The notes under the pieces were generated by a model that saw only the letters and a program-made list of their open reading frames with translations, did no database searches and was not told the DNA's origin. A stretch of DNA of 64,000 nt from Mycteria americana (Eukaryota; Chordata; Aves; Ciconiiformes; Ciconiidae), in contig NC_134371.1 in the NCBI RefSeq assembly GCF_035582795.1, forward strand, positions 48,587,001-48,651,000, read 5' to 3'. Positions 880-41,940 of the stretch are shown piece by piece (position 1 is the stretch's first letter; the number at the start of each line of letters is the position of its first letter). The position numbers were made by a program, and so were the translations under genes.

Positions 880-921
880 ATTTGCAGAGGAATCACTTCT
901 GACTAAGGTAGGGGATCCACC
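880..921 (-). CDS. Tail mini-exon 60 ([14 protein letters not shown]), last one seen
   Basis: 42 nt, phase 0-0, with a very long pyrimidine tract before the acceptor (926-955 on the plus strand is G/A) and donor AAT|gtaagc. No stop codon, so at least one more exon must follow to the left. Confidence 0.78.
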
Positions 922-3900
922 CTGGGCGGGGGGGGAGGGGGGAGAAAAAAAAAGAAAAATTAGCCTTTGTCTTTGACCATAAACTAAAAATGAAAAAAAA
1001 AAATCCTTAGAATGACTGTTCTATGGTATTTTAAAGGAAGAATATCACAATCTGAAATTAAATTACACTTACACTTCACTTACTTTTCTTAATTTGCCAA
1101 GATAGCAAATAGTCTTTTTCGGCTTGGAAGACCGTAAATCACAAAGTATCATTTTGTACCTACCCATGACTCATTGCCTAGAAAATAAGAATGCTACCCA
1201 TGGTGCAGGAATGTCCTTTACATACTACGTGTTGATTGACCACATATGTTTTGCTTTGGAAAGCATGTATTACCCTATTTCACAATCTAAATAATTCCAT
1301 ATGGATTTAAAAGCACATATGAGAAGTGGCTCAGATTTGTTTTTTTTTTTTAATTTGGTAAACATTGATTTCTGAGACAACTTTTTATGGTTGGCAATTT
1401 TGTAGATGATATTATTTTAGCTTCCCTTCACAACATATCTTTTGTCAATTAATTCTGCTATTTAATGCAATCAATTCTTTTTTTTTTTTTTTGAGAAGAG
1501 ATATACATCTCTCTAAATACTATATGGTAACTGAAAGTCACTGCTCAGAGAATACACCTTGCTGCCAACTTTGGGGGTTCCTGGCTTGTATGAGGAATAG
1601 TGTGGCCAGCAGGACTAGGGCAGTGATCGTGCCCCTGTACTCGGCACTGGTGAGGCCGCACCTCGAATACTGTGTTCAGTTTTGGGCCCCTCACTACAAG
1701 AGAGACATTGAGGTGCTGGAGCGTGTCCAGAGAAGGGCAACGAAGCTGGTGAAGGGTCTGGAGAACAAGTCTTATAAGGAGCGGCTGAGGGAACTGGGGT
1801 TGTTTAGTCTGGAGAAGTGGAGGCTGAGGGGAGACCTTATTGCTCTCTACAACTACCTGAAAGGAGGTTGTAGAGAGGTGGGGGTCAGTCTCTTCTCCCA
1901 GGTAACAAGCGATAGGACAAGAGGAAATGGCCTCAAGTTGCACCAAGGGAGGTTTAGACTGGATATTAGGGAATATTTCTTCACTGAAAGGGTTATCAAG
2001 CATTGGAACAGGCTGCCCAGGGAAGTGGTTGAGTCGCCATCCCTGGAAGTATTTAAAAGATGTGTAGATGTGGTGCTTAAGGACATGGTTTAGCGGTGGC
2101 CTTGGCAGTGTTAGGTTTACAGTTGGACTCGATGATCTTAAAGGTCTTTTCCAACCTAAATGATTCTATGATTCCAAATTCTTCATCTTGGCATAATGAG
2201 AAATAACTCCTACCCTGTCAGTAATATGTAAGTCACCAAAGGAAAAATGAATATAAAAGAGTGCATTCAAATAAATAAGTTAGAAATAAATAGGACCACA
2301 GATAATTTTCCAGTTAAATAATTTAGTAAAAGAAAATGTATAATGAACAAATAACACTTACAGAACTTCCCCCAGAACAATCACATCCACCCTGTAAAGA
2401 ATGCAGGAAATATTTAAGATATCAAGAGCACAGGACTGAAAGGAAATCCAGTTACAACTCAAATTACTTCTTCTACCATCCCAGGTATGCAAGCCATAAA
2501 GTTTCATTCATAACTGCTGAAGTGCCCAACTTCTAGAAATTAGTCTCTTTTTTGTTCATCCTATGCAACTATTCCTGAACTTAATGCTCTGATGGGGCAA
2601 AAAACTTCTAATTTTGTTATCTTCAAATTTGTTATATACAAACTTTATCTTAAAAACCTTACTCACCAGAAGAACAAGTAAAAAACTTCTGAGTAATACT
2701 ACAGAAGGCAATTTTTTTTTTCCCTAGAGAGGCCAAAGGACCTGGAATACATGCAGTACTCTTTCATGCTACAAATGTTACAGAAAACAGGTGATTTCTA
2801 CTCTGATAAAACTAACTGAGAGGTGGCCAGGGGTTCACCATTCAGTGTCTCACCTTCCACATTCCATCTGCATGAAATGTGTAAGAAGAAAAGTATTTAG
2901 CACCAAAGCAGGTACGGAAGCCCAAATACAATGGCCATTCAGACAGCTACTACTGGCTACTCTGGCCTGCAGGATGTCTGAATGACACGGAAAAAGAAAG
3001 TAATGTGTTGCTGAGGCTTTGGGCAAAAAGGGCAGTGGTGAAGTAAAACAGTTTTTGTGAAGGAAAGATATGCAAAGTAAATTGTGAGTGCCTGACACTA
3101 GCACAACTGAACAGTGGAGAAAGAAAAGCGTACCTGTCCATCAGACGGGCTGCCTCCTGAAGAATTTGAACCCTGTAAATGTTATATTTTCATTTAAAAG
3201 ATTTTCTTTAAGTTTGACACGTATATTTGACTACAATGTATTGTCTTTTACTCTCTAAACTATTTTTTATAAGATCTATCTGGTTAAGAACCCAATTTTA
3301 GCTATACAAAAAATAATGAGGATAAACCCCCCCCCAGTGGCCTGAAAATTTAGGTATTACCAATCTGGTAATATTTTCTTGAAATATGTATGTTGGGAGG
3401 GCGGGGGGAAAAAAACACCGAAGAAAAATAATTTCCCACCTGCCCACCATACTGGCTGCTTCCGGATGAGGATGAGTCCTGAAAAAAACCCCCAAATGTA
3501 ATTTATATTTTAAATATATAAATTAATATTTAAATTTAAACAAGATATTATTTATATAAATAAATACTTATATCTATTTTTATATTTATAAACATATATA
3601 AGCATGTATAAATATGTCTAAATTTATAAACATTTCATGTACATTTGTATATATTATTTGTATAATTAAATATTTGTTTATATAATATTATATAATATTT
3701 AAATATACGAATATATTTTAAAATATATAAATATTTATATTTTAAAATATTAATTAATACGAAATATTTAATACTTTGTTTCCTGGTGTTAGAACATCAG
3801 TTAATACATGAATTGTATTTCAATCACTCTGCTTACACTCGGGCTTTTATGTAGAGATATATAAGGAAAAGGTGTTTGAGTACCAAATGAATCTTGCTCC

Positions 3901-6900
3901 CAGATAAAAAATTGCTGTAATACAATATGAGGACTCAAGCTTTTGTATAACAGGTACTTCAGGTCAAAAATACAAAAAGTTAGTATTTACCTGTGCACTG
4001 GAGTAGCCACCACCTTGAGAAGATGATCCCTGCAAAAAGTAGACCCAATTTATTTTTCTTTAAAATGGCTTCTGGAAAACAAGACTATATTGTTGAATAG
4101 TCATACACACATTTTAAAAATTTTAAAATTTTTTTTTTTAGAAACAGTTTGCCATTTGGTTTCACAAGACATGACACCAGATATCATGAGAAATTCTAGG
4201 AGATAAACAGTTGGGTATAATTTACTCATGAGGATAATTTTTAAATAGAACAGCCATTTTGGAAGGGAACTGCAAATAATGAATAAAATAGATGCTTACA
4301 TGTCCACCTGACTGGCTGCCTCCTGGGGAATAAAAATCCTGAAAAATGTATTGAAATTACATGAAAAAACCAAAAACTTCCTTTCTTTTGTTGCATGGAA
4401 AGATCAGGATGGAAGCTGAACACTGCTTCTTGCTTCTCCACATTCCTTAGTTTTCTCTCATGGATTGTTCAAGAACAACCAAAAAAAGGTCTTTCTGTAT
4501 AAAACAGCACATGCCCCTTTATGCTTGTTGATAATTGCTCTTTTGGGTACAACAATTAAAGAGCTCTTGTATTTTCAACCAAATAATTTCTCAGTCTGTG
4601 TCATTTAGTTCTCATTAGAATAAATAAAATGGGTGCCATGTAAAAGTGACAGGAAAATGGAAGCCCTCATAAGCAAGTCATACAGCACAACAAAGCAAAG
4701 GGTTTCACTTACAATAAATGCTGGACAAATCATGGTATTGAAGCCTTTTGCAGGCAGACAATGAGTAAAAAAGCTCAGCAACCTGAACAAGTAAATTGTG
4801 GTACTGTGTGTGTAATGTGAGTTTGATTCAAGAGCACACCTCAGCATCAGTTGGGATTTCTAGCAGTACTTTAACACTTCAGCCATATCTTCATTCCCTC
4901 TGTGCTTGAGGACTTTTTATCCCACACTGGAAGCTACCACGCCAGCTCCCACACAAGATATAATTTAGGTGGCTAGCAGTTGCCAAGCACTGGGGCAGAC
5001 ACCCTGGCAACACGTAAGGAAGGAGTGCTTACCCGTTCACTCTGCCGGCTGCCAGATGGTGAGGTGGAATCCTAAAAATATTGGAATCTAGTTATTGCAT
5101 GGCAAATATTTCTATTTTTTCCCTAAGCAAGGGTGGAAGGCAAAGAAAACTACTGCTTGTTTGTGTGACTTGTTGGGAAGGTTAAAGATGTAGGCTGTAG
5201 GATAAGCAGCATTCTTTCAAGTCCTTTCTCTGCTCATTTCTGAAGAATGCCATTTCTTTATTTGGGAAGCCTAATCCTGATGTAGCGTAATAAAGGAATG
5301 AGATCACATCTCAATATATATTATTTTCTCTTAGAATACTATAGGGGAAAACATCAGCACTTTAAAACCTGTCTTAGTTCATGTAAGACCTTAGTGGTAC
5401 ACACCACTGTTGTTATACCTTAGTTTCTTCCATACAGCCTTGGGGCCCTCTAGCTTTTTAATAAATTAGCTTTGCTGAATATCCACAAGAAGATTTTGAT
5501 ACAGAAACTGTGTGGAAACTAGTGACTCACTATACCTGGGACTGAAGTGCACAGCTGAATATAAACATTTGTGGAAAACAATTTCCTACTAACCAGAACA
5601 CTGGAAAACAGACTTATTAGAAATCCAGTTAAAGTACAATCAATTATTCAAGACTCCGAGAAAATGAGACATTGAACTTGGAAAGTTTTATAAACAGCTT
5701 CACCAGAATTAATAGGAAATATACTTTAGTCAGGAGAAAAGGCATGTTCTTAAACAGAAAAGCAAGCAGTTCTCACCACACTACATGAAAACAGGCCATT
5801 CCCATGCAATATATAGATGAAGAAACTTGAATCTTATATGTCTGGCATTGAAAAAACACAAATGAAGTGTAGTGTGAATTGGAGATGGAAGGAGAGGGAA
5901 CTAGTCTGTGCAGTATTGATAAGGGAAGTTGTATTGTAGAAAAAGAATAAAAAGGTAGTAAATTCTGATATTGATACATTTGAGAAGAAATGCTTACACT
6001 GTCATCAGTTTCACCATCTCCTATGGGAGGTGAATCCTGTAAAATAATGGAAAAATATTTATTTTAATATAATATAATGACTCTTACATGACCTTACTTG
6101 TGGAGAATATAAAATAGAAAAATAAAAATAACCAGCCACTTAGAATCTCCAATTTTACCTAAACCAGGGAATGTGCCAGAAAAGAAAAAATACATAACTT
6201 TACCTGTTATTTAAGCAGAAGAGGTTAAAAAACCCCCTCCTTGTAAACACACATTTTTATAAGGAAAAATTTTAGATAAAGTTGATTTGCAAAATTAACC
6301 ATTCTTTACATTCAGAAATCCCATTGTCTATGCTTTCTTTCTAGATCCTGCACTAGAAGTAGCAACATGACACAATTTTCCATGAAAAAGCAATCTGGAT
6401 CATATCTTTTATTATTTTTAATAAATAATTCTATATGACTTTGGCTGGTTAAAATGTATTGCTAAACAAAACGTAAGATGGTCCCTACATAATGATCCCA
6501 CAATGAGATTCATATCAATAAATACAGACTTCAAATATAGTATGTGCATTCCCCTAGACTTTCAACAGCTTCTGCATAAGTAAGGTGTGTAAAGTAAATG
6601 CACAAAATATTTTCCTTTTGAATGAGCTAATGCATAAACAATACAGTAGTTAAAGCATTGTATAGTCACAGTGGCACAGTTAGCAGGATAGTGTATATAG
6701 TGCATCGCCTTCCCTCCATTATGGAAACGTTTAGAGTTGTAAAGGGGTAAATAAAAGTAAAGAGAAACAAAAGGTAAAATGGCATTTCCATGGTCATCAC
6801 TTAAAAGGAACTGAAATACAGAACGCAGTGCACATAAGAACCAACACAGCAAGCTTAAGCTTTTGATGTATGAGACAAATAATACTTACCTGACCATAAG

Positions 6901-9900
6901 ATGCAGCACCACTATATGTGGAAGATCCAGCACCACTGTATGTGGAAGATCCACCCTGTTCAGAAAACATAAATAATTTTCATATTGCAAACAGACTTTT
7001 TTTTTTTTTGACACTTACTGTAGAGATCCCTTTCTGGGGAGATTTAAAAAACATGAATATCACTTAGTTATCAGAATGGCTATTGAGCAACTCATACTTA
7101 TGTCCCTGTAAAACATAAATTTAACATATTTTAAACTCAAATTCTATTTCTACTTTTGAAGAGACCTTCATCTTGTAGATATTTCAAAGCTAGCATCGTT
7201 GAGGAGAATAAGTGTGAACGGTTGGAGGCACCCCACTTTTTACTCCCCTATAAACTTTGAGGCTACTTAGTTAAAAGTAAATGCAAATTCACTCTGCAAA
7301 GAAAAAAACGACCTTCATTAAAATATAGTGAAAGCCAAAATACAGAATATAGCTGTACATAGGAACCAGGGTATTGGCCCTCAGCACCCCTTATACAAAG
7401 AGAAAAAAACAGTATTTACCTGACCATAGGATTCACTGCTGCTGTCATAGAGAGGAGACCCTCCCTGTACAGAAAATAAAAAAAGTGTATTATTTTGGTT
7501 CCCTCAAGAACGATTCTTCCTTCTTTCAAGGGCAATACAGGAATGAAAATAACAGAAGTCTGTTATCTTTACAAACGAGGAAGAAGACTTACCTGTCCGT
7601 AAGATCCACCAGGATAGAAGGAAGACCCTCCCTGTACAGAAAACATAAAAATTTACTGTTTTGTAGTTGAAATGTTCTCTCAAGGAAGAGTTTTAGACTG
7701 CTCCTGTGCAGGCACAGTGACCAGAATATTTACCTGGTTACCAGAGAAAGAGCTGTGGGAAGAACCTGGGCCCTCCTGAAAGGAAAACACAGATCAGCTG
7801 TTTTCCTGCAGACAAGATGAGTATTTAAATACCAGTGTATCTGGTTCTCACTTTACACCCTTCCTCCCAATTTTGAGCTAACTTTTATATACCTAAATAA
7901 AAATCAAGACAATATTGTTAAAGAGGAAGAAGTCTTCTGGCGGTAATTTTCTTAACCTGATGAAATTTGAATTCTGCAAAGAAACTGCAAATGCCATTCT
8001 GTACTGTTCTCTGTCAAGCTTCACACCACTAGGTTGCATCAGGGTTAATGTAAGTTTTGTACTCTATGAGACAACTGTCAGGTCTGTAATTATAGCATGT
8101 CATGGCACCCACAATATCAGGAGTGAAGGAACCAGGATGATGGGAGCCTGTGTTATCCTGGTAATGGAGGAAGAACGACTACCTGTCCATAGGATCCTCC
8201 GGGATAGAAGAAAGGCCCTCCCTGTGCAGAAGACAGAATGGGTTACTGGTTTATGTTTGGCTCCTCCTTCAGGGAAGGTTTTAGATGGAGCTTCTGAATA
8301 GGGCATTTTATCTGAATGTTTACCTGGTTACCAGAATATGTGCTGTGTGAAGAACCTGGGGCTCCCTGAAATGAAAACACAGACTAGCTATTTTCTTGCA
8401 AACAGGATGGTGTAAATAGCCATGTACCTGACCCACTCTAGGCCAATATTGCTGGACAATATTGGCCTAATAAGAACAAGGAACTTTTTATCACTAATTT
8501 TCTTAGCTGGATGAAAGATCATTCCATGGAAGTTGTAAACACAATTTAGTCTTTTCCTCTGACAGACTTAATGTTGTAAGTTATAAATGGTTGATTCAAT
8601 TCTTGGGTGTTATATTTCACAACAGCCACCATATGGGGAATATAGGAATGAAGATAACAGAAGTTTGTCTTATCTTTACAACTTACCTGTCCGTAAGATC
8701 CACCAGGATAGAAGGAAGACCCTCCCTGTACAGAAAACATAAAAATTTACTGTTTTGTAGTTGAAATGTTCTCTCAAGGAAGAGTTTTAGACTGCTCCTG
8801 TGCAGGCACAGTGACCAGAATATTTACCTGGTTACCAGAGAAAGAGCTGTGGGATGAACCTGGGCCCTCCTGAAAGGAAAACACAGATCAGCTATTTTCC
8901 TGCAGACAAGATGAGTATTTAAATACCAGTGTATCTGGTTCTCACTTTACACCCTTCCTCCCAATTTTGAGCTAACTTTATATACCTAAATAAAAATCAA
9001 GACAATATTGTTAAAGAGGAAGAAGTCTTCTGGCGGTAATTTTCTTAACCTGATGAAATTTGAATTCTGCAAAGAAACTGCAAATGCCATTCTGTACTGT
9101 TCTCTGTCAAGCTTCACACCACTAGGTTGCATCAGGGTTAATGTAAGTTTTGTACTCTATGAGACAACTGTCAGGTCTGTAATTATAGCATGTCATGGCA
9201 CCCACAATATCAGGAGTGAAGGAACCAGGATGATGGGAGCCTGTGTTATCCTGGTAATGGAGGAAGAACGACTACCTGTCCATAGGATCCTCCGGGATAG
9301 AAGAAAGGCCCTCCCTGTGCAGAAGACAGAATGGGTTACTGGTTTATGTTTGGCTCCTCCTTCAGGGAAGGTTTTAGATGGAGCTTCTGAATAGGGCATT
9401 TTATCTGAATGTTTACCTGGTTACCAGAATATGTGCTGTGTGAAGAACCTGGGGCTCCCTGAAATGAAAACACAGACTAGCTATTTTCTTGCAAACAGAC
9501 ATTTAAGTAAGTGAGTCCATTTCTGAATTTCTATTCTTTCAAAATATAGCTGTCAAAAAGGACATTACTGCTATCATTAAAAGAGAACACTGGTTATTTT
9601 TGTTAGAGATAAGGAAACCTTTAGCAGGTACTTTTCTGTTCAGGTTAAAAGACCTGAAAGAAATCGTAACTTTTCATTTTACTCTTTCTAATCACAGAAT
9701 CCTATGTCATACCTGGCAGACTCTATATTGTTATAGATGATCATGACCCTGATGGTGTTTTTAAAAATTGCTAGAATACTGAAATTCCAAAGTGTAAATA
9801 GGGTTTAGGAGAGCAGATTTTTCAGCTCACCACTTAAAGGAGAAGACTATTTACCAGTACATAACATCCATTATTACTGTCACATCCCCTTTATATACAA

Positions 9901-33900: not shown

Positions 33901-36900
33901 ACCACATTAGAGCACTCTTGCATCTTTCACCTATTTCTGGATGACTGGCTTGACCTGTCTAGTATTCATAACTTCAGAAGTATCCCTGCTGTACGAAAGA
34001 ATGAAAAACTGAAATAGCCTTAGTTATTGTAGATATCTGTGTGATTACTTCTGAGAGGAGGAACAACTTAGAACATGCAGACCAATTCACACCAGTCTTG
34101 TCTGGGGCAGAAGGGGAGAATAAACAACCTGTATAATGAGTGTAATGTACGTGCAACAGATAACCCCTTCCAGTCCTTTTTTCATTATTCTACAATCTAT
34201 GTGTTTCTATTTAACTTTTTAATATTTCTGTTTGCCAACTACTTTATATCATTGAATAAATTGTAATATTCATCTTCGAGCTCTCTCCATTATTTTCTAT
34301 TTGCAACAGAAACTCCCACATGAACACTCATATAAATAATGCAATTGAAGGCTAGGAGTTACTATAAATGTAGTTATGTTGGGGACAAAAAAGTAAACAT
34401 AAGAAAAGTACTTACAGGGCCACATCCACTCTTGCTTATTGTGTAGACTACTCCACTCTGAGATAAAAACAGAAGTCAATTATTTCCATGTTTGGGGGGG
34501 GGGGGGCAGAAAGAAAAAAAAAAAAAAGCCCTGTTGTTTATGGTATGAAAAGTTGTGCAACTGACAATGTGTATATGAAAATATGAGATAAGCAAGTACA
34601 GAGGTTACCAGTTCACTGGCAACTGGCTGTAACAATTCTAATTTAGTATGAGACATTAGTCATCACCTGGATTTCATATAACTTTGTCCTTGGTCATGCA
34701 ACCTTTCAAAATGCACAAGTTGTTTTACTAAATGATCTATATTTTAGAAAAAACCCAACAACTTCAGGTAGTTACGTGACAAGATGAGAAACTCAACTCT
34801 TAGAAAAGGGTATGTATTATATATGAAAGAAATATAATGAAGAAAATCAGTTTTTAGTATATAAATCAAAATAATTGGCATTTCTCAGAGTCTGGTAATT
34901 CCACTTACAAGTAGTGAAGATTGAACAAATGGAATATTACCAGATAATTCACTAATAAATAGAATCACTAGTAAGTAGTAAGAAATATATACTTAAGAAG
35001 CTAAGTTCAAGAAACTGGAGACATACCAGAAAGCATCTGACAGTTCAAGTGCAAATAAGCACATTATGGTAGTGGAGATAACTAACTAAAAACCAAGTAT
35101 ACATTTCTGTGATTAAAGAAGTGAAAGTGATCAGTGAGAATGCAGACATACATACCCCAAAAGTTTTAAAAGGCTAACTAGACAGTGAAATCCCCAAATT
35201 TTCAACTGCAAATATAATCCAGTGTTAAAAGTGATACAGACGTTATACCGGGGCTTTAATAGATGCATGAATATCTGGTGAATTTTGGAGAAATTTTGCA
35301 AATTTTTGTGGCGAAGACAGTGAAACACAAGTATAATTAGTCCTTTTATTTTGATTATTAAAAAAAAAAGAAATAAGAAAAATGCCTAACAAATCAATTA
35401 ATAATAAGTACAGTCTCATTTTCATTATGCCAGATGTCTCTCAAACTATAAAACAAATGGTTTGTGACTGTGTTTGCATGCACATGTGCACACACCGGTA
35501 GGAATCCTCTAGGAAAATGGAAGGAATCTTTTTTTTTCCTCAAAAGGGTCAAGTTAATGCTTGATAAAAATGCTTAATGTGTGAAATAAATGAGAGGTGG
35601 TGAAGCATCTTGTAGGTAAGAATACTGACAGCAAGCTATTGAGTTCAACAGAGTGTATGTAGTTGAACCTAGTCCTAGGTTCTGAACATACAGTTTACTG
35701 GATTAATAACTCTGGCTTTCTGTTTTAACTAGCAGAGATGATATTTCAGTACAGTATTAAATCATCTCAGTACTCTGTAGTTACAGAATTTTAGTTGTTC
35801 AAGGTTACTAAAGGAAAACGTACAAATGCTGGAAGTTAGGACTCTTACCTGACTGCCTGAATAGCTGTTCTGAGAGGAACTGGAAGGTCCAACCTGTAAA
35901 GAAACCAAAATGCTATTTATTATTTTGCAGAAATTTGATTGTTATATAAATGATTTTCAGGAAAGAAAGATCTACTTGGTGGGAAAAGGAAGAACACACA
36001 AAGTAGTTTTCCGTGACTTCATTCCACCAACTGATACTATTAAAATTATTTCAGAGATCTTTAAAGCCAAATAATCAAAACTATACCAAAACAGCTGGTA
36101 TAAATAAACATAATTCTGCTGCTTGCACCCTTTTTTATCTGGCCTCGTACACTTGATGTCCATCATTGAGGAAGAGACCTACACTGTCAAGATCATTAAA
36201 AAGTAGATGAAAACTTTTTACTGATATGACTATGTAATCACTAGACACTACGAAATGTAGGGCATATTTGCTAGGAGGAAGGAAAGAAGAAAAAGAGCCT
36301 TCTTCACTGAGCTGAAAGTGATAGTTTTCAGAAAAAAAAATCAAATAGTTAAATTTTATATCTAGATCATGATTTGCAAAAAGGCAAGGTTTCAGAGCTG
36401 TTGAAATAAGTGATCTTGAAAAGCAAGCAAGCACTATGACTAAAAAGTGAAGACAGAAAAAAGAAAACTTCTATTAGAAAGTTACTCCAGATTAGATAGA
36501 GAGAACCTGTAGAAGGAAATAGTAACAAGGCTGACAACCATTTAGAAAGTTTGGGATTTTAATCAACCAAGGTAAATTGCCAAAAAGAAAAATAAATTGA
36601 GCAACAAGAGGGATAAAGGTGTGACTAGAAGCAGCTTTTGACTAGGTCTTGAGATCTTGGGCAATTAGCAGTATGTCAATGTATTTGGAGAAAGAATATT
36701 TACCATGATGCATCGGCCTTGTGTTGTGTAAGTCCCCCCACGCTGCAAGAAAGTACAGGTTCCAGTTACTGTTTATTGTCTGGTGTATAAATACCAAATT
36801 ATTTTAAACAGGAAATCAACTGAATTCACATTCATGGTGTGAGTGAAGAAGTGTTTCATTGCTTACAATACCTTACACATTGTAACAAACTGATCTGAGC

Positions 36901-39900
36901 ACTGATGTTAACTAATTGAAAATAAAAATACCTTCAAAACTGCATACCAAAATGTAAGCATAAATGAGATCTCACTAGGAAAGTAATTTGAATGGTACAA
37001 TATAATCTTCGTGCTACAAACATGAAACAACTGGACCAGTAGGACAGGAATTCTCAAACTGAGGTAACTGAAAATTGGGAAATTGAAGAAAAATTGCTCT
37101 TACCTTGTTACATTCTACTTCTATCATAAGCTGTGAAAAAAAATGACAAAACATTTACAAGTTATTTACTGGAAAAAAAAAAGCAGCTTATTATAGGAAA
37201 CAGGAAATACATTTGGTGAAGCAAGGGACAAAAGACTGTTCACTCTTGGTTAGATTGCAAGATGACATAAATCAGTGTTGCTACAGCCAAGAACCAATAC
37301 AGTAGATTTGAACAGAATTTCTTTACTTTAGGTGCCTATTGTGTTTAAGATGTTTCATATAAGCATAATTCTTGGCCAAAAAATAAACAAACTCATTTCT
37401 AAGAATATGCTACACAGCTATAGTTCCAAGGAACTGGGGCAGCAGTTAAGAACAGCACAGTACACCGGCAGTACAGTAGAGTTCTCCTTGTGACCAATTT
37501 TCTTTTCTTTGTCTTTATGCTATGGATTGTTTTGATAACTAGATTATTAGTTTCCTTATTTCTGTGGGGGAAAAAGAATATTTATTTTATTTTTTCATCA
37601 ATTTAGTAAGAGGATTAGGCAGTTAAATTAAAAGTGTTGAAAATATCTAATGATTTTGGCCATCTTAGTTAATGAATACATGACAACGAATGTATGTCTT
37701 GTATCAAGTCAAAGATATTTTAATTTACTGCATTAATTTCTAGTATGCAAATACATTCAAAACATACCTTTCTTTTACTTTTTCCTGTCCCATTAACTGA
37801 CTCAGAATGTGTAGGTGTGAGAGTTTTGCTTTGAATTCCAACCCAAAATTTCTCTAGATCTTGAACAACAGTTGCACTGGAAAGAAAACAAAATAATCAT
37901 TATTTTTCTATCAACACATTTCAGTATAAAATACCAATAAACTCTCTTTCCCCCCCAAGCCAAGAAAATCCACTCTATTTTGATTTTAAGGGTGTACAGT
38001 ACAAGTTTGAAAAGAACATCATCATTTTCCAGAACACTTTTCTTTTCCAGTTGCTGTATTATCATCCAACGTAATTTTGAAGATAAATAAAATAGATGCT
38101 GAGAAGGAGCAGAAGAGGAATGGACACTATATGAAGAAGCACTGACTCCAGTGGGGAGTATCAGCTCAAATGTCCATAAAAATTGTCACACCTCTTTCCT
38201 GCTCTGACGATCTATCTATATGATGGTGAACTGATTTTCATGGCATTAATGAGTGCAAGTGATCATGTTTTTAATTTGTGTTCTTTTGCCCCTTTTTGTA
38301 TTCCTCAAGATTTAATGAAGCAAGGCCAAGATGCCCCTATCATAAATCTACACTTCAAACAATATCAAGCTATCAAATATTTAGATATTTTCCAATTACA
38401 TCAAGCATGAATTTTGTTAGACCAAGTGATATTTTTACAAGCTTCAGATCTGCAAGAAACATACCATTAAACGAAGGATAAATTTGTCTTCTCCTGTTTT
38501 CAGCAGTTAGTTCATGGGTTGTAAACTTATTTTTAGATTTATCTTACAAGCATTTACCTCAAACTACTACTCTTCTGCTGTTCAAAATGAAAAAAGTTAT
38601 AATTGAATACAGTCTGAACTTCACTTATTCAGGGAACTAGTTACATTCATAATGTTGCTCTTGTAATTAAAGAGGTCAAAGTGTAAAGACTGGTCACTCA
38701 AAGATCCATTAAAAACACTGTGCTTAATGGAATTATTTACATATATTACCACCTGTAGGACAGTTTTTACCTTTTATAATTATACCTTGAAATGGAAATC
38801 ATGTTATTTAATGGACACAGTGGGAAGTTATGACAAACTATGAAAAAAACCATGACTGTGGCAAGACAAGAACATCAGAAACAGCAACACAGATCCATGT
38901 CAAAATAATCCATAGAAATAAAATTTCAAGGGAAAAAAAAAAGAAAAACAATTATTTACATAAAGTGGAGATCTCTAATATCATGTGGAGCAATCCATGT
39001 TGTTGTAACTCTCTGCTTCACATCTGAATTTGCATGACTTACTGCTGAATTCTGCAATTAAAAAGAAATACATACAGTTATATAAGATGCAAAAGTGACC
39101 TATATTATTAGGGGAATGGTCTCTACTACAACAGGTAACACTGATGTCCTCCTAAAAAGTGCCAGGTAGCTTCTACATTAGATTCATATCACATATAGAA
39201 GATACATGTATTTCTTGAGAAAGACTAAATTTTTGAACTCTACTGATGAAATAACTTTGCCATATAAAAAATGCTCACTACTTCTATTAATTTTGATTAA
39301 AGTATTTAAAAGGAAACCAAGCTTAAGTAAGTATTCCGAAGACTGAACACATACCGTCATGTTACGACACTCCAAGCCTTTAGTGTTTGGATCTGTAATT
39401 TTAAAAGTACCAACAGGAACATCTCCTTCTATTTCTCGAGCTTGTAGATTAAATCCTTTAAAACCAACATCTTTAAGTGCTTCTAGAGTCACTGTGAAAA
39501 CAGACGTTTTGAGAAATTTAAGTTTCATACACAACTAAAACCTCTTAAATCTTTAACAACTAATTTCTCTTACTCCAAAGCACAAGACTGCTTAAAACTT
39601 TTACAATTTTTAAAAATATTGGGATTTATTACAGTTTTTATTAATTATCAAAAGAATGACAATAAAGGAAAATGAAGAAATTTGGAGAGGCATTTCTGTG
39701 TAAAGTAACAGGAAATATATGATTTACTGACAATTTTAAAAGTAATTCTGCTCTACCAAATGTCTACAACTTTCTTATTAATCTCACTTGCTCCCCATGC
39801 ATACTCAGAATATTGGCCAATGGCCCTGCTGACCAAAAGGTTATTTATTTTCTATCTAATTAGGCCTACAAAGTCAAAATATCTATGGGAGAAAGAGAAT

Positions 39901-41940
39901 TGCATTTCTTTCTACCTCTGTTTCAAAAAAAATATGAACTTTTGCCTAAGGCTGAATTGCAGAACCATTTTTTTAAATGTGTTACAACTGGAAAAAGAGA
40001 AACTAGACAGTTTGGCTCTCATGTTCTATCTTAAATATGAAAAATTAATAATTATGAACTACTCAATTTTACTCAAATTTTGTTACTGAAGGAGCTCAGA
40101 AAAATATGGAAGAGAGCAGTTTTGTGTATATCCAAATTGAAATTAAATTTCAAGAGGCATAATCAAACTTGTTATGATCTATTATAAACTTGCTGTGCTA
40201 ATGCCAATATTAGGCACTTTTGCAAATAAAATCAGAACAATGGTTTATGCCCACAGATATGTGTAGTCATTAAAAATAAGGATGGATAAACTGGGAATGG
40301 CACAGAAGTCAAGGCAAGGACCAATAATACCTTGACGATTTAACATTTCCAAACACCTGCATAATTAGCCTTCCAATTTGTCATCAACTTTCAGTCCTAA
40401 TTCACTAATTTTTTGCAGGTCTCACGGGGGGAAGACATCCAACACTTGAATGCGGTGTTAAACCAACCACAGATGTGACTGTAAGAGTGTTGGCACATGG
40501 CATGCCACAGGTGAAACTGCAATATGGAAGGGCAGCTCCCTGAGACCAGGTACAGGATGCTTACAATTTGAAGCAATAGAAAAGTAGTGCTAAAGCAAGA
40601 AAAGCACTGTTAGAAAAAAAAGGAAAAAGAAAAAAGGCAAGGTTAGTAGCATCTGGGATTCAATATTTTTGTAATGGTAAATCCCATATAACCTCACAGA
40701 ACAGTCTGCATATACTTAAATCCATCCATCATTTTCCTGGCAATACTGTTTTAAAAATAGCTATCAGTAATCAAACAGCCCTCACAGCCTTGAAGGCGTT
40801 ATTCACACGTTTTTCCAAGAATGGCAGCTATAATAGGACTCCAATGCTTGTCCATTCTTCTCCCTACATATCACCCTCTGCGGAAGCACTTCCATGCTAC
40901 TAGGTTCCGGTAAAACAGAATCCTAGCTGGACAGTAGCTACTTAGTGAATAATGTTCTTTTTCAGCTACCGAGATACAACGGACATGTGACAGGTTACAA
41001 CTCGCTTCCACTTCCATGCTTCTTCTAGCAAATGGCTAGAAAACAAGCATTCACAAGCCACTTAAAGTGTGACAGCACCATGAGATGGCATCATAGTGAG
41101 GTGAAACAAGGCTTTCATGTGTTCCATCCAGAGAGCAATTTGGGATTAGGAAGATAAAAAGGTGGTTTAAACCACAATAGCTCCACCTCCTGCAATTTGA
41201 TAAAATCTGGGATGCAGCTCTTAGAAGGATGACTCAAAATGTCTCACTCTTGAGTTGTCTTATACTGCATCCTGAATTTTTATTTTCCTGTAAGATGAGA
41301 GCATGTGAACATCTAATGAGTGGGATCCTTTTGTATTGCAGAGGCCTGATACAACAGCAAATACTCAAATACAAAGTTAAAGAGCAACTAATTATTAGTC
41401 CAGTTTGACCAGCTGTCCCATTTCATTTTAATTTTGTCACAAAAATTGTAGCATGAAGTTAAGATGTATTTATTAGATAGGGAAAAGAAAAAAAGAGAAT
41501 ATATTTTCAGTTAGACATACATATATATATACTATATACATACACACACACATATATATATAACTATATACATACGTATATATATAAAACGTTTCCAAAA
41601 AGATTAATATCTCAGGTATGGATGAATGATATTGAAATTAAAAAATAGATTTAACTTGACTGGGAGGGAAACATGGGAATTTTGGTGAAGACTGGTAATT
41701 CTGGGAGACACAGATAAAGATTTTATGTCATTCAGATTATTTACCTTGGATTTCATTTCCTGGCTCAAAGTTATCAAAAGATACAGTAATAAGATATGGT
41801 GGTACAGATGTCTGTGGTTCAGCTTCATAGTTTGGTAACAGAGAATCACAGTCAATTGAGGTATTTGTCTGTGGAAAACCAAGGATTCTGGGCAAAAATA
41901 TCCCACAGAACAAAAAAACAAAGCAGGAGTGTCTCCTCAT
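880..41940 (-). CDS. Reeler-domain secreted protein with a Gly/Ser/Tyr/Gln-rich tail encoded by 56 mini-exons (whole gene, 3' end not in window)
   Basis: Sixty coding exons can be joined into one open frame on the minus strand. Exons 1-4 give residues 1-178: signal peptide, then a Reeler domain (about residues 29-160) with the family's hallmarks, namely an N-terminal Cys31, a PPYLI strand, [20 protein letters not shown], a second Cys107, AVSHAN and [17 protein letters not shown]. The next 56 exons (18-66 nt) all divide by three, join in phase 0 and mostly end in CAG (Gln) and begin with GG (Gly). They add about 716 residues of Gly/Ser/Tyr/Gln-rich sequence. Reeler domains occur in reelin, F-spondin, ferric-chelate reductase 1 and insect defence proteins; I see no DOMON, cytochrome b561 or spondin domain here. 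An extracellular matrix, mucus or adhesive role is inference. The stop codon lies outside the window or was missed. Mammalian REELD1 is another Reeler protein, but orthology cannot be judged from this sequence. Confidence 0.85.
1545..2173 (+). mobile_element. CR1 LINE, 3' fragment (ORF2 C-terminus)
   Basis: The frame ending at 2091-2093 encodes the C-terminal end of CR1 ORF2 after the reverse transcriptase: [57 protein letters not shown] and [19 protein letters not shown] short 3' UTR follows, ending in the CR1 terminal repeat (gattctatgattc near 2160-2173). The element is strongly 5'-truncated but its remaining frame is open to its natural stop, so it is fairly young. It lies in the intron between exons 59 and 60, antisense to the gene. 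Confidence 0.9.
2362..2391 (-). CDS. Tail mini-exon 59 ([10 protein letters not shown])
   Basis: 30 nt, phase 0-0, acceptor ctttacag, donor TCT|gtaagt. Second exon with a Cys-x-Cys pair. Confidence 0.78.
3134..3172 (-). CDS. Tail mini-exon 58 ([13 protein letters not shown])
   Basis: 39 nt, phase 0-0, acceptor atttacag, donor CAG|gtacgc. NSS is a potential N-glycosylation site. Confidence 0.86.
3440..3478 (-). CDS. Tail mini-exon 57 ([13 protein letters not shown])
   Basis: 39 nt, phase 0-0, acceptor ttttttcag, donor CAG|gtggga. Confidence 0.86.
3500..3785. repeat. AT-rich low-complexity tract
   Basis: Nearly pure A/T with ATTTATATAAAT-like words, in the intron between exons 56 and 57. Confidence 0.85.
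3991..4029 (-). CDS. Tail mini-exon 56 ([13 protein letters not shown])
   Basis: 39 nt, phase 0-0, acceptor ttttgcag, donor CAG|gtaaat. Confidence 0.87.
4300..4338 (-). CDS. Tail mini-exon 55 ([13 protein letters not shown])
   Basis: 39 nt, phase 0-0, acceptor ttttcag, donor CAT|gtaagc. Confidence 0.84.
5033..5071 (-). CDS. Tail mini-exon 54 ([13 protein letters not shown])
   Basis: 39 nt, phase 0-0, acceptor tttttag, donor CGG|gtaagc. Confidence 0.82.
5998..6036 (-). CDS. Tail mini-exon 53 ([13 protein letters not shown])
   Basis: 39 nt, phase 0-0, acceptor tttacag, donor AGT|gtaagc. Acidic, without Tyr; start of the more divergent 3' part of the tail. Confidence 0.82.
6204..6239 (-). pseudogene. 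Probable decayed mini-exon
   Basis: 36 nt between an acaag acceptor and a CAG|gtaaag donor. It begins EGVF and has stops at codons 5 and 11. Confidence 0.4.
6890..6955 (-). CDS. Tail mini-exon 52, internally duplicated (GSSTYSGA twice, then ASYGQ)
   Basis: 66 nt, the longest tail exon; phase 0-0, acceptor tgaacag, donor CAG|gtaagt. An extra Gly is followed by two 24-nt copies encoding GSSTYSGA that differ at one base (TAC/TAT), then ASYGQ. The extra length is explained by this duplication inside the exon. Confidence 0.9.
7420..7464 (-). CDS. Tail mini-exon 51 ([15 protein letters not shown])
   Basis: 45 nt, phase 0-0, acceptor tgtacag, donor CAG|gtaaat. Confidence 0.9.
7593..7631 (-). CDS. 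Tail mini-exon 50 ([13 protein letters not shown]), first block
   Basis: 39 nt, phase 0-0, acceptor tgtacag, donor CAG|gtaagt. Confidence 0.9.
7734..7775 (-). CDS. Tail mini-exon 49 ([14 protein letters not shown]), first block
   Basis: 42 nt, phase 0-0, acceptor ctttcag, donor CAG|gtaaat. Confidence 0.9.
8183..8221 (-). CDS. Tail mini-exon 48 ([13 protein letters not shown]), first block
   Basis: 39 nt, phase 0-0, donor CAG|gtagtc. Paralogue of exon 50 at protein level (Ser-Ser changed to Pro-Phe). Confidence 0.9.
8324..8365 (-). CDS. Tail mini-exon 47 ([14 protein letters not shown]), first block
   Basis: 42 nt, phase 0-0, acceptor atttcag, donor CAG|gtaaac. Confidence 0.9.
8687..8725 (-). 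CDS. Tail mini-exon 46 ([13 protein letters not shown]), second block
   Basis: 39 nt, phase 0-0, donor CAG|gtaagt, 102-nt intron to exon 45. Identical to the exon at 7593. Confidence 0.9.
8828..8869 (-). CDS. Tail mini-exon 45 ([14 protein letters not shown]), second block
   Basis: 42 nt, phase 0-0, acceptor ctttcag, donor CAG|gtaaat. Differs silently from the exon at 7734. Confidence 0.9.
9276..9314 (-). CDS. Tail mini-exon 44 ([13 protein letters not shown]), second block
   Basis: 39 nt, phase 0-0, donor CAG|gtagtc. Separated from exon 43 by only 102 nt. Identical to the exon at 8183. Confidence 0.9.
9417..9458 (-). CDS. Tail mini-exon 43 ([14 protein letters not shown]), second block
   Basis: 42 nt, phase 0-0, acceptor atttcag, donor CAG|gtaaac. 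Identical to the exon at 8324. Confidence 0.9.
9713..9748 (-). pseudogene. Decayed mini-exon with a stop
   Basis: 36 nt between a catcag acceptor and a CAG|gtatga donor. It starts GHDHL and then meets TAA at codon 6. Confidence 0.5.
10327..10371 (-). pseudogene. Decayed mini-exon with three in-frame stops
   Basis: 45 nt between a ctgtccag acceptor and a CAT|gtaaac donor. The frame keeps SSVYGSSSA but has stops at codons 2, 12 and 14. Either a dead exon or, if spliced in, a truncating one. Confidence 0.6.
10929..10967 (-). pseudogene. Decayed mini-exon: acceptor lost
   Basis: 39 nt still open as [13 protein letters not shown] with an intact CAG|gtaaaa donor. The acceptor position reads ctg instead of cag, so it should no longer be spliced in. 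Confidence 0.6.
11773..11814 (-). CDS. Tail mini-exon 42 ([14 protein letters not shown])
   Basis: 42 nt, phase 0-0, acceptor tttatag, donor CAG|gtaatt. Carries a Cys-x-Cys pair. Confidence 0.82.
12335..12376 (-). CDS. Tail mini-exon 41 ([14 protein letters not shown])
   Basis: 42 nt, phase 0-0, acceptor ttcacag, donor CAG|gtcagg, which is weaker than most. Confidence 0.82.
13075..13113 (-). CDS. Possible additional mini-exon ([13 protein letters not shown])
   Basis: 39 nt, phase 0-0, with a strong CAG|gtaagc donor but a purine-rich acceptor tract (gggcccag). The peptide is hydrophobic and unlike the tail; not counted in the total. Confidence 0.35.
13294..13335 (-). CDS. Tail mini-exon 40 ([14 protein letters not shown])
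   Basis: 42 nt, phase 0-0, acceptor ttcacag, donor CAG|gtaata. Contains NES and NSS sequons. Confidence 0.8.
13471..14042 (+). mobile_element. Solo LTR of an endogenous retrovirus, with target-site duplication
   Basis: The 572-bp element starts TGTCCTGG and ends ACGACA and is flanked by a 5-bp direct repeat, tgtag, at 13466-13470 and 14043-14047. Inside are a TATA box (13728-13735) and an ATTAAA polyadenylation signal (13911-13916), placed as in an LTR. No internal retroviral genes are present. A 5-bp duplication is compatible with several ERV classes. It fills most of the intron between mini-exons 39 and 40 and is antisense to the gene. Confidence 0.88.
14110..14151 (-). CDS. Tail mini-exon 39 ([14 protein letters not shown])
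   Basis: 42 nt, phase 0-0, acceptor tatacag, donor CAG|gtaaac. The solo LTR sits just upstream of it in the transcript. Confidence 0.78.
14645..14728. repeat. Short imperfect tandem repeat
   Basis: The words aattaggacaaa, aattagggaaaaa, aattaggcataa, aattgggacaaa, aattaggtatag and agttagggcaa follow each other at about 12-17 bp spacing. Confidence 0.6.
14777..14812 (-). CDS. Tail mini-exon 38 ([12 protein letters not shown])
   Basis: 36 nt, phase 0-0, acceptor ctttacag, donor CGG|gtaagt. Contains one Cys; more basic than its neighbours. Confidence 0.75.
14997..15020 (-). CDS. Possible additional mini-exon (AGTSDEGV)
   Basis: 24 nt between a tgctag acceptor and a GTG|gtaagg donor, phase 0-0 and open. 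The peptide composition fits the tail, but the exon is short and lacks paralogue support; it is not counted in the total. Confidence 0.4.
16068..16097 (-). CDS. Tail mini-exon 37 ([10 protein letters not shown])
   Basis: 30 nt, phase 0-0, acceptor ttttccag, donor CAG|gtaagt. Begins with an NDT sequon. Confidence 0.82.
16699..16743 (-). CDS. Tail mini-exon 36 ([15 protein letters not shown])
   Basis: 45 nt, phase 0-0, acceptor tcctag, donor GAT|gtgagt. Acidic, with one Cys. Confidence 0.8.
17087..17125 (-). CDS. Tail mini-exon 35 ([13 protein letters not shown])
   Basis: 39 nt, phase 0-0, acceptor ttaaag, donor CAG|gtaact. Confidence 0.88.
17270..17305 (-). CDS. Tail mini-exon 34 ([12 protein letters not shown])
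   Basis: 36 nt, phase 0-0, acceptor tttatag, donor CAA|gtaagt. Confidence 0.88.
17486..17524 (-). CDS. Tail mini-exon 33 ([13 protein letters not shown])
   Basis: 39 nt, phase 0-0, acceptor ttagcag, donor CAG|gtaggt. Paralogue of exons 32 and 34 (shared SQNY core). Confidence 0.88.
17646..17684 (-). CDS. Tail mini-exon 32 ([13 protein letters not shown])
   Basis: 39 nt, phase 0-0, acceptor tcatag, donor CAA|gtaagt. First of four closely spaced paralogous exons. Confidence 0.88.
17948..17968 (-). CDS. Tail mini-exon 31 (DGSQAGQ)
   Basis: 21 nt, phase 0-0, acceptor tttacag, donor CAG|gtagtt. Confidence 0.7.
18545..18765. repeat. AT-rich low-complexity tract
   Basis: TATAATA/TATTATA-rich sequence in the 1.45-kb intron between exons 30 and 31. 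Confidence 0.75.
19423..19455 (-). CDS. Tail mini-exon 30 ([11 protein letters not shown])
   Basis: 33 nt, phase 0-0, acceptor aacag, donor CAG|gtaaat. Contains one Cys. Confidence 0.8.
20745..20789 (-). CDS. Tail mini-exon 29 ([15 protein letters not shown])
   Basis: 45 nt, phase 0-0, acceptor tttttcag, donor CAA|gtaagt. Contains one Cys. Confidence 0.85.
21178..21213 (-). CDS. Tail mini-exon 28 ([12 protein letters not shown]), array copy 1
   Basis: 36 nt, phase 0-0, acceptor cttacag, donor CAG|gtaagc. Last exon of the array in transcription order. Confidence 0.88.
21463..21492 (-). CDS. Tail mini-exon 27 ([10 protein letters not shown]), array copy 1
   Basis: 30 nt, phase 0-0, acceptor ttaaag, donor CAG|gtgaga. 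Confidence 0.88.
21783..21824 (-). CDS. Tail mini-exon 26 ([14 protein letters not shown]), array copy 1
   Basis: 42 nt, phase 0-0, acceptor tcttag, donor CAG|gtaagc. Confidence 0.9.
22161..22196 (-). CDS. Tail mini-exon 25 ([12 protein letters not shown]), orphan array exon
   Basis: 36 nt, phase 0-0. Differs from the AYQ type only in the first codon (acceptor cag then AGC). It sits 983 bp from the exon at 21178, but its own upstream partners are replaced by unrelated intron. Confidence 0.88.
22209..23373. other. Non-repeated intron splitting the exon array
   Basis: About 1.2 kb between the orphan exon 25 and exon 24 has no similarity to the 983-bp unit. I found no mini-exon, mobile element or other feature in it. 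Confidence 0.7.
23431..23466 (-). CDS. Tail mini-exon 24 ([12 protein letters not shown]), array copy 2
   Basis: 36 nt, phase 0-0. Repeat homology ends about 60 bp to its left, where the 1.2-kb spacer begins. Confidence 0.88.
23717..23746 (-). CDS. Tail mini-exon 23 ([10 protein letters not shown]), array copy 2
   Basis: 30 nt, phase 0-0, acceptor ttaaag, donor CAG|gtgaga. Confidence 0.88.
24037..24078 (-). CDS. Tail mini-exon 22 ([14 protein letters not shown]), array copy 2
   Basis: 42 nt, identical in sequence to the exon at 25020; phase 0-0, donor CAG|gtaagc. Confidence 0.9.
24415..24450 (-). CDS. Tail mini-exon 21 ([12 protein letters not shown]), array copy 3
   Basis: 36 nt, identical to the exons at 21178, 23431 and 25398; phase 0-0, donor CAG|gtaagc. 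Confidence 0.88.
24700..24729 (-). CDS. Tail mini-exon 20 ([10 protein letters not shown]), array copy 3
   Basis: 30 nt, identical to the exons at 23717 and 25683; phase 0-0, donor CAG|gtgaga. Confidence 0.88.
25020..25061 (-). CDS. Tail mini-exon 19 ([14 protein letters not shown]), array copy 3
   Basis: 42 nt, phase 0-0, acceptor tcttag, donor CAG|gtaagc. Lies exactly 983 bp from its paralogues at 24037 and 26003. Confidence 0.9.
25398..25433 (-). CDS. Tail mini-exon 18 ([12 protein letters not shown]), array copy 4
   Basis: 36 nt, phase 0-0, acceptor cttacag, donor CAG|gtaagc. Third exon type of the 983-bp unit. Confidence 0.88.
25683..25712 (-). CDS. Tail mini-exon 17 ([10 protein letters not shown]), array copy 4
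   Basis: 30 nt, phase 0-0, acceptor ttaaag, donor CAG|gtgaga. Second exon type of the 983-bp unit. Confidence 0.88.
26003..26044 (-). CDS. Tail mini-exon 16 ([14 protein letters not shown]), array copy 4
   Basis: 42 nt, phase 0-0, donor CAG|gtaagc. It is the 5'-most and most diverged member of the [14 protein letters not shown] exon type of the 983-bp array, with Arg/Pro and Gly substitutions. Confidence 0.88.
26754..26798 (-). CDS. Tail mini-exon 15 ([15 protein letters not shown])
   Basis: 45 nt, phase 0-0, acceptor tgtgtag, donor CAG|gtaagt. The Ser run is encoded by an AGC triplet repeat that could vary in length. Confidence 0.8.
28247..28282 (-). CDS. Tail mini-exon 14 ([12 protein letters not shown])
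   Basis: 36 nt, phase 0-0, acceptor tttttcag, donor CAG|gtagac. Confidence 0.75.
28851..28868 (-). CDS. Tail mini-exon 13 (RHTYPQ)
   Basis: 18 nt, the shortest exon called; phase 0-0, acceptor atttgcag, donor CAG|gtaagc. Confidence 0.6.
29520..29558 (-). CDS. Tail mini-exon 12 ([13 protein letters not shown])
   Basis: 39 nt, phase 0-0, acceptor cctctatag, donor GTG|gtaagc. The peptide is unusually hydrophobic for this tail. Confidence 0.65.
29795..29870 (-). mobile_element. Possible MIR fragment
   Basis: The string cagtcacacaatgactcaac followed by gaggccgaagcaggattt resembles the reverse complement of the MIR core. It is short and diverged. It lies in the intron between exons 11 and 12. 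Confidence 0.3.
30771..30806 (-). CDS. Tail mini-exon 11 ([12 protein letters not shown])
   Basis: 36 nt, phase 0-0, acceptor ctttacag, donor AAG|gtaagc. Confidence 0.8.
31674..31712 (-). CDS. Tail mini-exon 10 ([13 protein letters not shown])
   Basis: 39 nt, phase 0-0, acceptor atttcag, donor CAG|gtaact. Ends in the recurrent YGQ. Confidence 0.85.
32617..32658 (-). CDS. Tail mini-exon 9 ([14 protein letters not shown])
   Basis: 42 nt, phase 0-0, acceptor ttcttag, donor GAT|gtaagc. Contains one Cys. Confidence 0.8.
32841..33115. repeat. TATA-rich minisatellite with recurring agccctttgtata word
   Basis: Imperfect TATACATTATA and TATACTTATA units are bracketed by three or more copies of ttagccctttgtata, near 32853, 33080 and 33098. 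It lies in the intron between exons 8 and 9. Confidence 0.8.
34416..34457 (-). CDS. Tail mini-exon 8 ([14 protein letters not shown])
   Basis: 42 nt, phase 0-0, acceptor atctcag, donor CCT|gtaagt. Contains one Cys. Confidence 0.75.
34494..34527. repeat. G-run and A-run homopolymer pair
   Basis: A run of 13 G is followed by a near-pure run of A, 36-70 nt from the acceptor of mini-exon 8. It makes an unusually C-rich polypyrimidine stretch in the transcript. Confidence 0.85.
35849..35893 (-). CDS. Tail mini-exon 7 ([15 protein letters not shown])
   Basis: 45 nt, phase 0-0, acceptor tttacag, donor CAG|gtaaga. First clear Ser/Tyr/Gln-rich module. Confidence 0.85.
36704..36742 (-). CDS. Tail mini-exon 6 ([13 protein letters not shown])
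   Basis: 39 nt, phase 0-0, acceptor cttgcag, donor ATG|gtaaat. Contains one Cys. Confidence 0.75.
37104..37130 (-). CDS. Tail mini-exon 5 (LMIEVECNK)
   Basis: 27 nt, phase 0-0, acceptor ttttttcacag, donor AAG|gtaaga. It is not Gly/Ser rich and has one Cys; it may be the last part of the linker. Confidence 0.75.
37768..37876 (-). CDS. Exon 4: end of Reeler domain and basic linker
   Basis: One base plus 36 codons, residues 142-178. [17 protein letters not shown] is the closing strand of the Reeler domain. The linker then holds an NGT sequon (Asn170) and a basic KSKRK at 174-178, a possible proprotein-convertase site of the K-x-K-R type. After this exon every junction is phase 0, so this is the boundary between the folded domain and the modular tail. 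Acceptor ctttccag, donor gtatgt. Confidence 0.92.
38960..39051 (-). CDS. Exon 3: Reeler domain, AVSHAN segment
   Basis: The exon encodes residues 112-141 plus two bases. It starts [12 protein letters not shown] and continues [15 protein letters not shown], matching the family pattern of an SHTN-like turn followed by a W-x-AP strand. It ends in phase 2 (AT) and the next exon supplies T, so the frame is confirmed at both sides. Acceptor aattgcag, donor gtaaat. Confidence 0.92.
39355..39491 (-). CDS. Exon 2: Reeler domain core
   Basis: The exon has 2 + 135 nt, residues 66-111. It contains [28 protein letters not shown] and GLECRNMT, the most recognisable part of the Reeler fold, with Cys107 as the likely disulfide partner of Cys31. 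NMT at 109-111 is an N-glycosylation sequon. Acceptor ttttcacag, donor ACG|gtatgt. Confidence 0.92.
41512..41588. repeat. TA/CA microsatellite
   Basis: Mixed (TA)n and (CA)n runs in intron 1. Confidence 0.85.
41745..41940 (-). CDS. Exon 1 (coding): signal peptide and start of Reeler domain
   Basis: This exon encodes 65 codons plus one base. The start codon ATG (41938-41940) directly follows a good acceptor (pyrimidine-rich, ending ccacag), so a 5' UTR exon probably lies upstream. Residues 1-22 are a typical signal peptide: a basic MRR, then a hydrophobic core ([12 protein letters not shown]). The mature start carries an NTS sequon at Asn26, Cys31 and the PPYLITVSF strand of a Reeler domain. 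The donor is CAAG|gtaaat, and its single leftover G completes a Val codon with exon 2. An upstream in-frame ATG at 42037-42039 exists, but the peptide before MRR is not signal-like and an acceptor interrupts it. Confidence 0.88.

Follow-up and report, generated by a model that had tools for sequence, protein, structure and literature searches.

Elastin, the PEVK region of titin and dermokine are encoded by many small symmetric exons, which specify low-complexity segments of tuned length. Among proteins with a Reeler domain, F-spondin also carries spondin and TSR domains, and in FRRS1 the Reeler domain is followed by DOMON and cytochrome b561 domains. In schistosomes, the micro-exon genes (MEGs) place their coding sequence mostly in very small symmetrical exons, and the portion of PMC4350168 that treats them describes how alternative splicing yields a pool of similar proteins that occur in secretions and at exposed epithelia. 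The same portion describes VAL-6, part of which has very small symmetrical, MEG-like exons beside a folded domain. Epidermal differentiation genes, in an excerpt of PMC9365767, are credited with one or two coding exons. Here, we describe a gene of Mycteria americana in which a Reeler domain is joined to a tail of dozens of mini-exons.

The window that we analyzed is the whole stretch of 64,000 nt at C7:48,587,001-48,651,000 of the M. americana genome (NC_134371.1, GCF_035582795.1; 1.35 Gb), and negative positions denote bases before its first base, outside the window. On the minus strand, we modeled a gene whose coding part spans ∼56.7 kb in at least 79 exons (Table 1). Four Reeler exons (41,940-37,768) are followed by 73 mini-exons of 18-66 nt, all in phase 0 and all multiples of three in length, which encode 927 of the 1137 residues. 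Fifty-six of the mini-exons (717 residues) lie within the window and 17 lie past its first base; the 3′ end of the gene is 11.9 kb outside the window, with the terminal coding exon at -11,921..-11,823. A preliminary description of this DNA had counted at least 56 mini-exons of 18-66 nt and ∼716 residues, figures that our curated in-window model reproduces to within one residue. The limits that it gave, 880 and 41,940, have both moved outward, the former to about -11,921 with the addition of 17 mini-exons and the terminal exon, and the latter through a conserved 5′ exon at 44,723-44,764. Our overall explanation, which we hold to be rather probable, is that this sequence is one functional gene, conserved in sauropsids, that makes a Reeler protein of the secretory pathway and would be transcribed in M. 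americana.

The four Reeler exons encode 178 residues, and a search of these residues returned PF02014 at full length (positions 1-131 of 131) with 105.1 bits against a cut-off of 21, which bears out the earlier reading of the N-terminus as a secreted Reeler domain. Introns among these exons are in phases 1, 0 and 2, the pattern of an ordinary gene; downstream from 37,130, all further coding exons of the model are in phase 0 with lengths that are multiples of three. Translation of the 5′ exon from an in-frame ATG at 44752 gives MPTHQRSVEK, and its junction with the Reeler exon is in phase 0. Ten similar residues (such as MPTHQHLVDK) stand ahead of the Reeler exon's own Met in six of the seven unfused bird models listed; the conserved 5′ exon corresponds to these N-terminal residues. 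The surrounding stretch, 44,500-45,000, is richer in G+C and is a candidate promoter region of the gene.

Table 1. Coding exons of the Reeler mini-exon gene of M. americana (window coordinates; negative positions lie outside the window)
Feature	Coordinates	Strand	Evidence and remarks
5′ exon	44723..44764	-	acceptor 3.1, donor 9.3; 5′ boundary uncertain
Signal peptide and Reeler start (...GNEIQ)	41745..41940	-	splice sites, Pfam
Reeler exon 2	39355..39491	-	splice sites, Pfam
Reeler exon 3	38960..39051	-	splice sites, Pfam
Reeler exon 4, ends in basic junction ..NGTGKSKRK	37768..37876	-	splice sites, Pfam
Mini-exons 1-11	37104-37130, 36704-36742, 35849-35893, 34416-34457, 32617-32658, 31674-31712, 30771-30806, 29520-29558, 28851-28868, 28247-28282, 26754-26798	-	splice sites, homology
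Mini-exons 12-24, SYGQ block	26003-26044, 25683-25712, 25398-25433, 25020-25061, 24700-24729, 24415-24450, 24037-24078, 23717-23746, 23431-23466, 22161-22196, 21783-21824, 21463-21492, 21178-21213	-	splice sites, homology, repeats
Mini-exons 25-38	20745-20789, 19423-19455, 17948-17968, 17646-17684, 17486-17527, 17270-17305, 17087-17125, 16699-16743, 16068-16097, 14777-14812, 14110-14151, 13294-13335, 12335-12376, 11773-11814	-	splice sites, homology; some alignable to turtle
Mini-exons 39-46	9417-9458, 9276-9314, 8828-8869, 8687-8725, 8324-8365, 8183-8221, 7734-7775, 7593-7631	-	splice sites, homology, repeats
Mini-exons 47-56	7420-7464, 6890-6955, 5998-6036, 5033-5071, 4300-4338, 3991-4029, 3440-3478, 3134-3172 (by hand), 2362-2391, 880-921	-	splice sites, homology
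17 further mini-exons	-766 to -11,414 (outside window)	-	splice sites, homology
Terminal coding exon, SSAGKHSTPRFLLLLSVLSAFGLSAATSKWSI-stop	-11,921..-11,823 (outside window)	-	C-terminus conserved in birds and turtles

The mini-exons average 38 nt, and their most frequent length is 39 nt (27 of 73). Every acceptor is AG, and the donors are GT in 72 cases and GC in one; the GC donor belongs to the mini-exon at -7095..-7057, outside the window, which uses a GC-AG intron instead of GT-AG. The tail consists of 27.6% Ser, 23.5% Gly, 10.6% Gln and 7.6% Tyr and contains 30 [G/S]Y[G/S] and 19 SYGQ motifs as well as 14 Cys residues and 5 sequons. Gly is the first residue in 42 of the 73 mini-exons and Gln is the last in 54, the latter in part because CAG suits the donor consensus. 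Each tail module would then be one phase-0 mini-exon of 6-22 residues, often with Gly first and, at the splice site, Gln last. At 66 nt, the mini-exon at 6890-6955 is the longest; it contains an internal 24-bp tandem repeat of 2.3 copies at 6898-6953, so mini-exons may also grow from within. By eye, one intron appears to hold the 3′ end of a LINE at 1545-2165, which we presume to be of the CR1 type.

When candidates of 15-90 nt were scored by splice sites only, open phase-0 stretches of a length divisible by three accounted for 94 of 246 overlapping candidates on the minus strand of the window and for 10 of 93 on the plus strand. A chain model that combined splice scores with residue composition at a penalty of 15 gave 61 minus-strand exons in the 55-kb locus and 2 in 209 kb of flanks, and at the same penalty 0 exons on the plus strand; this model is partly circular because the composition weights came from exons of the same locus. 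In the least biased test, frame and length were left free, and the score, with a threshold of 22, came from comparison with 12 bird proteins. Of its 86 picks, 71 were phase-0 stretches of a length divisible by three; on the plus strand it made 5 picks, at 22-28. Twelve of the 15 other picks likewise scored 22-28, and the three higher ones were a 92-nt stretch matched by Nyctibius, a 103-nt pick containing a true exon and a 31-nt truncated form of the GC-donor exon. Before homologues entered the model, 64 of the 73 mini-exons had already been predicted with the same ends.

Our curation favored phase 0. One pick was dropped, five were re-bounded and two exons were added by hand. The 66-nt picks at 25683, 24700, 23717 and 21463 were each cut back to a 30-nt exon, and of the 103-nt pick at 22161 we kept 36 nt; the additions were 3134-3172 and the GC-donor exon at -7095..-7057, of which the homology test had picked only the truncated form. 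The pick that we dropped was the phase-0 one at 2667-2723, which we took for a chance resemblance to the C-terminus. We also left out a 92-nt open stretch at 36087-36178 on the minus strand, whose splice sites are weak (-2.6 and 0.6) and whose length is not a multiple of three. This stretch closely matches part of a Nyctibius model (P0026) and may be an exon specific to one lineage or an artefact of annotation.

Three protein searches returned relatives from birds, one crocodile, turtles and squamates (lizards and snakes), the nearest being birds, which are as much as 94% identical in the Reeler part. Amphibians, mammals and fish were not among the relatives returned by these searches, and because they required shared 5-residue words and had protein-length limits, this absence outside sauropsids is weak evidence. 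The joined exons aligned with models from crow (84.6% identity over 1015 residues), duck (84.2% over 1010), ostrich (83.4% over 881), cuckoo (85.4% over 943) and swan (85.5% over 818), identities that are not wholly independent because all five models are among the 12 proteins used in exon choice. Exon order was kept between M. americana and these five models. One turtle protein gave anchors, in order, for 14 of the 73 mini-exons and the crocodile protein for 29, some of the low-complexity matches being weak. From FWVG to the SAGK of the C-terminus, M. americana has 955 residues, compared with 649-898 in five bird models and 305-424 in five turtle models. Because this distance is shorter in turtles, birds seem, from these sequences, to have extended the tail, with the reservation that exons may be missing from single models.

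As far as the protein models show, related birds are free of frame-breaking changes across most mini-exons, which the preliminary description had named as grounds for rejecting the gene; identity in the five other birds is instead 83-85%. Its account of a secreted Reeler protein with a tail of phase-0 mini-exons is supported, and in the unfused database relatives PF02014 is the only domain found; three fused models add transporter domains. The word "undescribed" has to be withdrawn, as the gene is already in public databases for many birds, a crocodile, turtles and squamates, misnamed and uncharacterised. Literature searches yielded nothing that we recognised as describing this Reeler mini-exon gene, and no function was found. 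Many of the relatives are named "hornerin-like," "loricrin-like," "filaggrin-2-like," "spidroin-2-like" and "FRRS1 reductase." We know of no Reeler domain in the hornerin, loricrin, filaggrin-2 and spidroin-2 families, and for this reason the first four labels are probably misnomers.

The modularity of the tail is apparent in 28 isoform models of Corvus kubaryi, which are database predictions to which RNA reads presumably contributed. These models have 28 different tails, and all 28 split exactly into whole mini-exon units, 57-60 each. We counted 58 unit types, of which 41 were present in all 28 models and 17 were absent from some. The parse used 58 of 67 unit strings, with seven single-occurrence strings and two fragments omitted, and the strings were cut out of these very isoforms at borders transferred from the M. 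americana exons. Upon alignment of the isoforms, we found block-wise gaps that match the units. The preliminary description had held that any subset of mini-exons can be skipped or joined without a frameshift. Skipping of whole exons without a frameshift is borne out by 28 of 28 crow models, but a choice of any subset is not, with 41 of the 58 units constant and 17 optional.

Near-identical tandem units lie within the gene at 21,143-25,865 and 7,587-9,276. The SYGQ block (21.2-26.0 kb) contains four repeated units spaced 2254, 983 and 983 bp, and the 300-nt segments tested there were 98-100% identical, apart from one at 75% in an ungapped comparison. In the 7.6-9.5 kb block, two units of four exons each lie 1,093 bp apart and are 99-100% identical. 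Because every unit is symmetric, duplication of intron-exon-intron keeps the frame, and the tail would have grown by tandem duplication of such units. Mini-exon number may differ between individuals where the tandem units are near-identical. Cassette skipping of whole mini-exons would in turn give each bird a family of tails that differ slightly in length and content.

The C-terminus has the layout SSAGK-HSTPR-FLLLLSVLSAFGLSAA, which is hydrophobic and conserved in birds and turtles. We found the pattern SSAGK..LLLLFSVLSAF in 15 of 67 non-kubaryi proteins (7 bird and 8 turtle); it was absent from the squamate and crocodile models, and most of the database models among the 67 end earlier or do not match. 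GPI-anchored proteins combine a signal peptide with a small-residue site, a spacer and a hydrophobic C-terminal tail. Judged by its appearance as a sequence, this short hydrophobic C-terminus would most likely direct GPI anchoring. In the order that we propose, a signal peptide would be followed by the Reeler head, the KSKRK junction, a tail of ∼930 residues rich in Ser, Gly, Gln and Tyr, and the hydrophobic C-terminus. The product would either remain on the cell surface or be released by shedding at the basic site, and its role would be that of a flexible coat on the surface, an adhesive or a matrix protein.

Along the contig, the order of genes is TRMT13 (PF05206), SASS6 (by eye), MFSD14 (-49 to -57 kb), SLC35A3 (-25.8 to -35 kb), the Reeler mini-exon gene, AGL (PF14701), an FRRS1-like Reeler exon (+134.6 kb, plus strand) and a Paralemmin-domain gene. 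We take the Paralemmin-domain gene to be PALMD. This order is presumably that of human 1p21.2, with the Reeler mini-exon gene added between AGL and SLC35A3. The FRRS1-like exon (L002), ∼90 kb away and on the opposite strand, matched PF02014 at 33 bits, and a candidate cytochrome b561 exon beside it (140,960-141,075) gave no Pfam match. From its Reeler exon and the gene order, we tentatively take this neighbor to be FRRS1. Because of this separate Reeler exon at +134.6 kb, and because neither DOMON nor b561 is listed for the unfused relatives, we judge it unlikely that the mini-exon gene is itself FRRS1. With the neighbor taken as FRRS1, the label "FRRS1 reductase" on bird models is probably a misnomer.

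The same observations can be read in other ways. The tail could be an inert spacer, a loosely constrained linker in which duplications are neutral and the many isoforms reflect noisy splicing or combinations produced by annotation programs. We consider this doubtful: it would accommodate the 41 of 58 unit types never skipped in the 28 crow models, the near-identical tandem copies and the variation of tail length among species, but it is at odds with the 83-85% identity and conserved exon order in crow, duck, ostrich, cuckoo and swan and with non-repetitive exons that can be aligned to turtle. We are equally hesitant about a precursor of two parts, in which a proprotein convertase would cut the K/R-x-K/R-R-K junction to leave the Reeler head as a secreted ligand and the tail as a separate surface coat. 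A basic junction K/R-x-K-R-K/R is present in 35 of 35 bird rows listed, which exclude a few models that did not match the search pattern (e.g., P0017, P0081 and P0082), and K/R-S-K/R-R-K is present in 12 of 12 squamate rows listed; the turtle and crocodile junctions, however, are other basic stretches without the exact bird or squamate pattern. That the gene is the 5′ part of the SLC35A3 transcription unit, with a fusion to the Golgi transporter as its main product, is very improbable. Fused models are found in duck (P0083), Willisornis (P0081), Hirundo (P0082) and a turtle (P0089), and in M. americana the exon with the SLC35A3 ATG is open in frame behind a phase-0 acceptor, which means that a read-through splice from -11,414 to ∼-25,760 would fuse the two in frame. 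A conserved terminal exon with its own stop in birds and turtles argues against such a fusion, as does a G+C-rich stretch seen by eye between the genes at ∼-13.5 to -14 kb. We give next to no credence to a pseudogene or chance pattern, for which low coding density and nothing else speaks, and which the strand and flank controls together with cross-species conservation rule out.

A role as a structural protein of skin, feather or other cornified or secreted material, akin to the cornification proteins after which the gene is named, would fit the Ser/Gly/Gln/Tyr composition and the database names hornerin-like, loricrin-like and filaggrin-2-like. A possible lead comes from REELD1, which is raised in green head-feather follicles of mallards according to passages of PMC8692775, cited in PMC11050116, and which could be the Reeler mini-exon gene or another Reeler gene. 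We nevertheless find this role unlikely. Composition is probably what gave rise to the names, the gene is flanked by AGL and SLC35A3 and encodes a signal peptide and a Reeler domain, and a literature search pairing "hornerin-like" with feather found nothing. Identity with an epidermal differentiation gene (hornerin, filaggrin or loricrin) was rejected on position, the locus being the AGL-SLC35A3 interval and not the epidermal differentiation complex. In a chicken muscle microarray, as given in part of PMC8273767, 36 differentially expressed "hornerin-like" transcript variants showed a 3.4-4.1 fold decrease in wooden breast at 7 weeks. These variants may derive from the Reeler mini-exon gene because its crow, cuckoo, crocodile and tortoise models bear that name. 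Uniting the scattered names, such as hornerin-like and spidroin-2-like, would make expression data under them usable.

The reading that we prefer remains a functional, conserved Reeler gene, one that appears able to vary the length and make-up of its tail by splicing without loss of frame. As a tentative extension, it is possible that this gene is a vertebrate counterpart of MEGs, in which dozens of symmetric mini-exons would give a large repertoire of surface or matrix proteins, perhaps specific to tissues or individuals, with exon number still changing through the near-identical tandem units. The symmetric-exon design would offer a clean system for low-complexity tail growth by exon duplication and for possible regulation of length. 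What is new in this uncharacterised, misnamed gene is the combination and its scale in a vertebrate; it involves no new principle. To our knowledge, its mini-exon count is among the highest in any vertebrate gene.

In comparison with known Reeler proteins, the F-spondin (SPON1) structures 2zou, 2zot and 3coo were matched at E 0.0035-0.0052 (three of six structure rows), and the remaining three were weaker matches to proteins that are not named as Reeler proteins. F-spondin shares the Reeler domain, with weak sequence similarity, whereas its spondin and TSR domains are absent from models of the mini-exon gene. REELD1 (RELD1) is likewise a Reeler protein, and one hummingbird model of the mini-exon gene is named RELD1 (P0022). 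Another Reeler exon, at C4:75,843,969-75,844,199 (L001; 64 bits), had no match among solved structures, F-spondin included, at E up to 1 and is possibly bird REELD1; the three relative searches, limited by 5-residue words and protein length, returned no mammalian sequence for a comparison with REELD1. With FRRS1, the mini-exon gene has in common PF02014 and the name on many of its database entries, but it occupies a separate locus on the opposite strand and its unfused models carry PF02014 only.

As regards gene structure, elastin, titin PEVK and dermokine are alike in their small, symmetric, length-tuned exons, with no homology claimed, and epidermal differentiation genes differ from a gene with at least 79 exons and a Reeler domain. 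The nearest precedent is the schistosome MEGs, in which small symmetric exons likewise supply most of the coding sequence. The two differ in phylum, Reeler domain and tail composition; we claim no kinship and assume convergence. The 28 of 28 crow models, as database predictions, are consistent with MEG-style variants that differ by few residues, and VAL-6 provides a close structural parallel in that it links a folded secreted domain to a MEG-like stretch.
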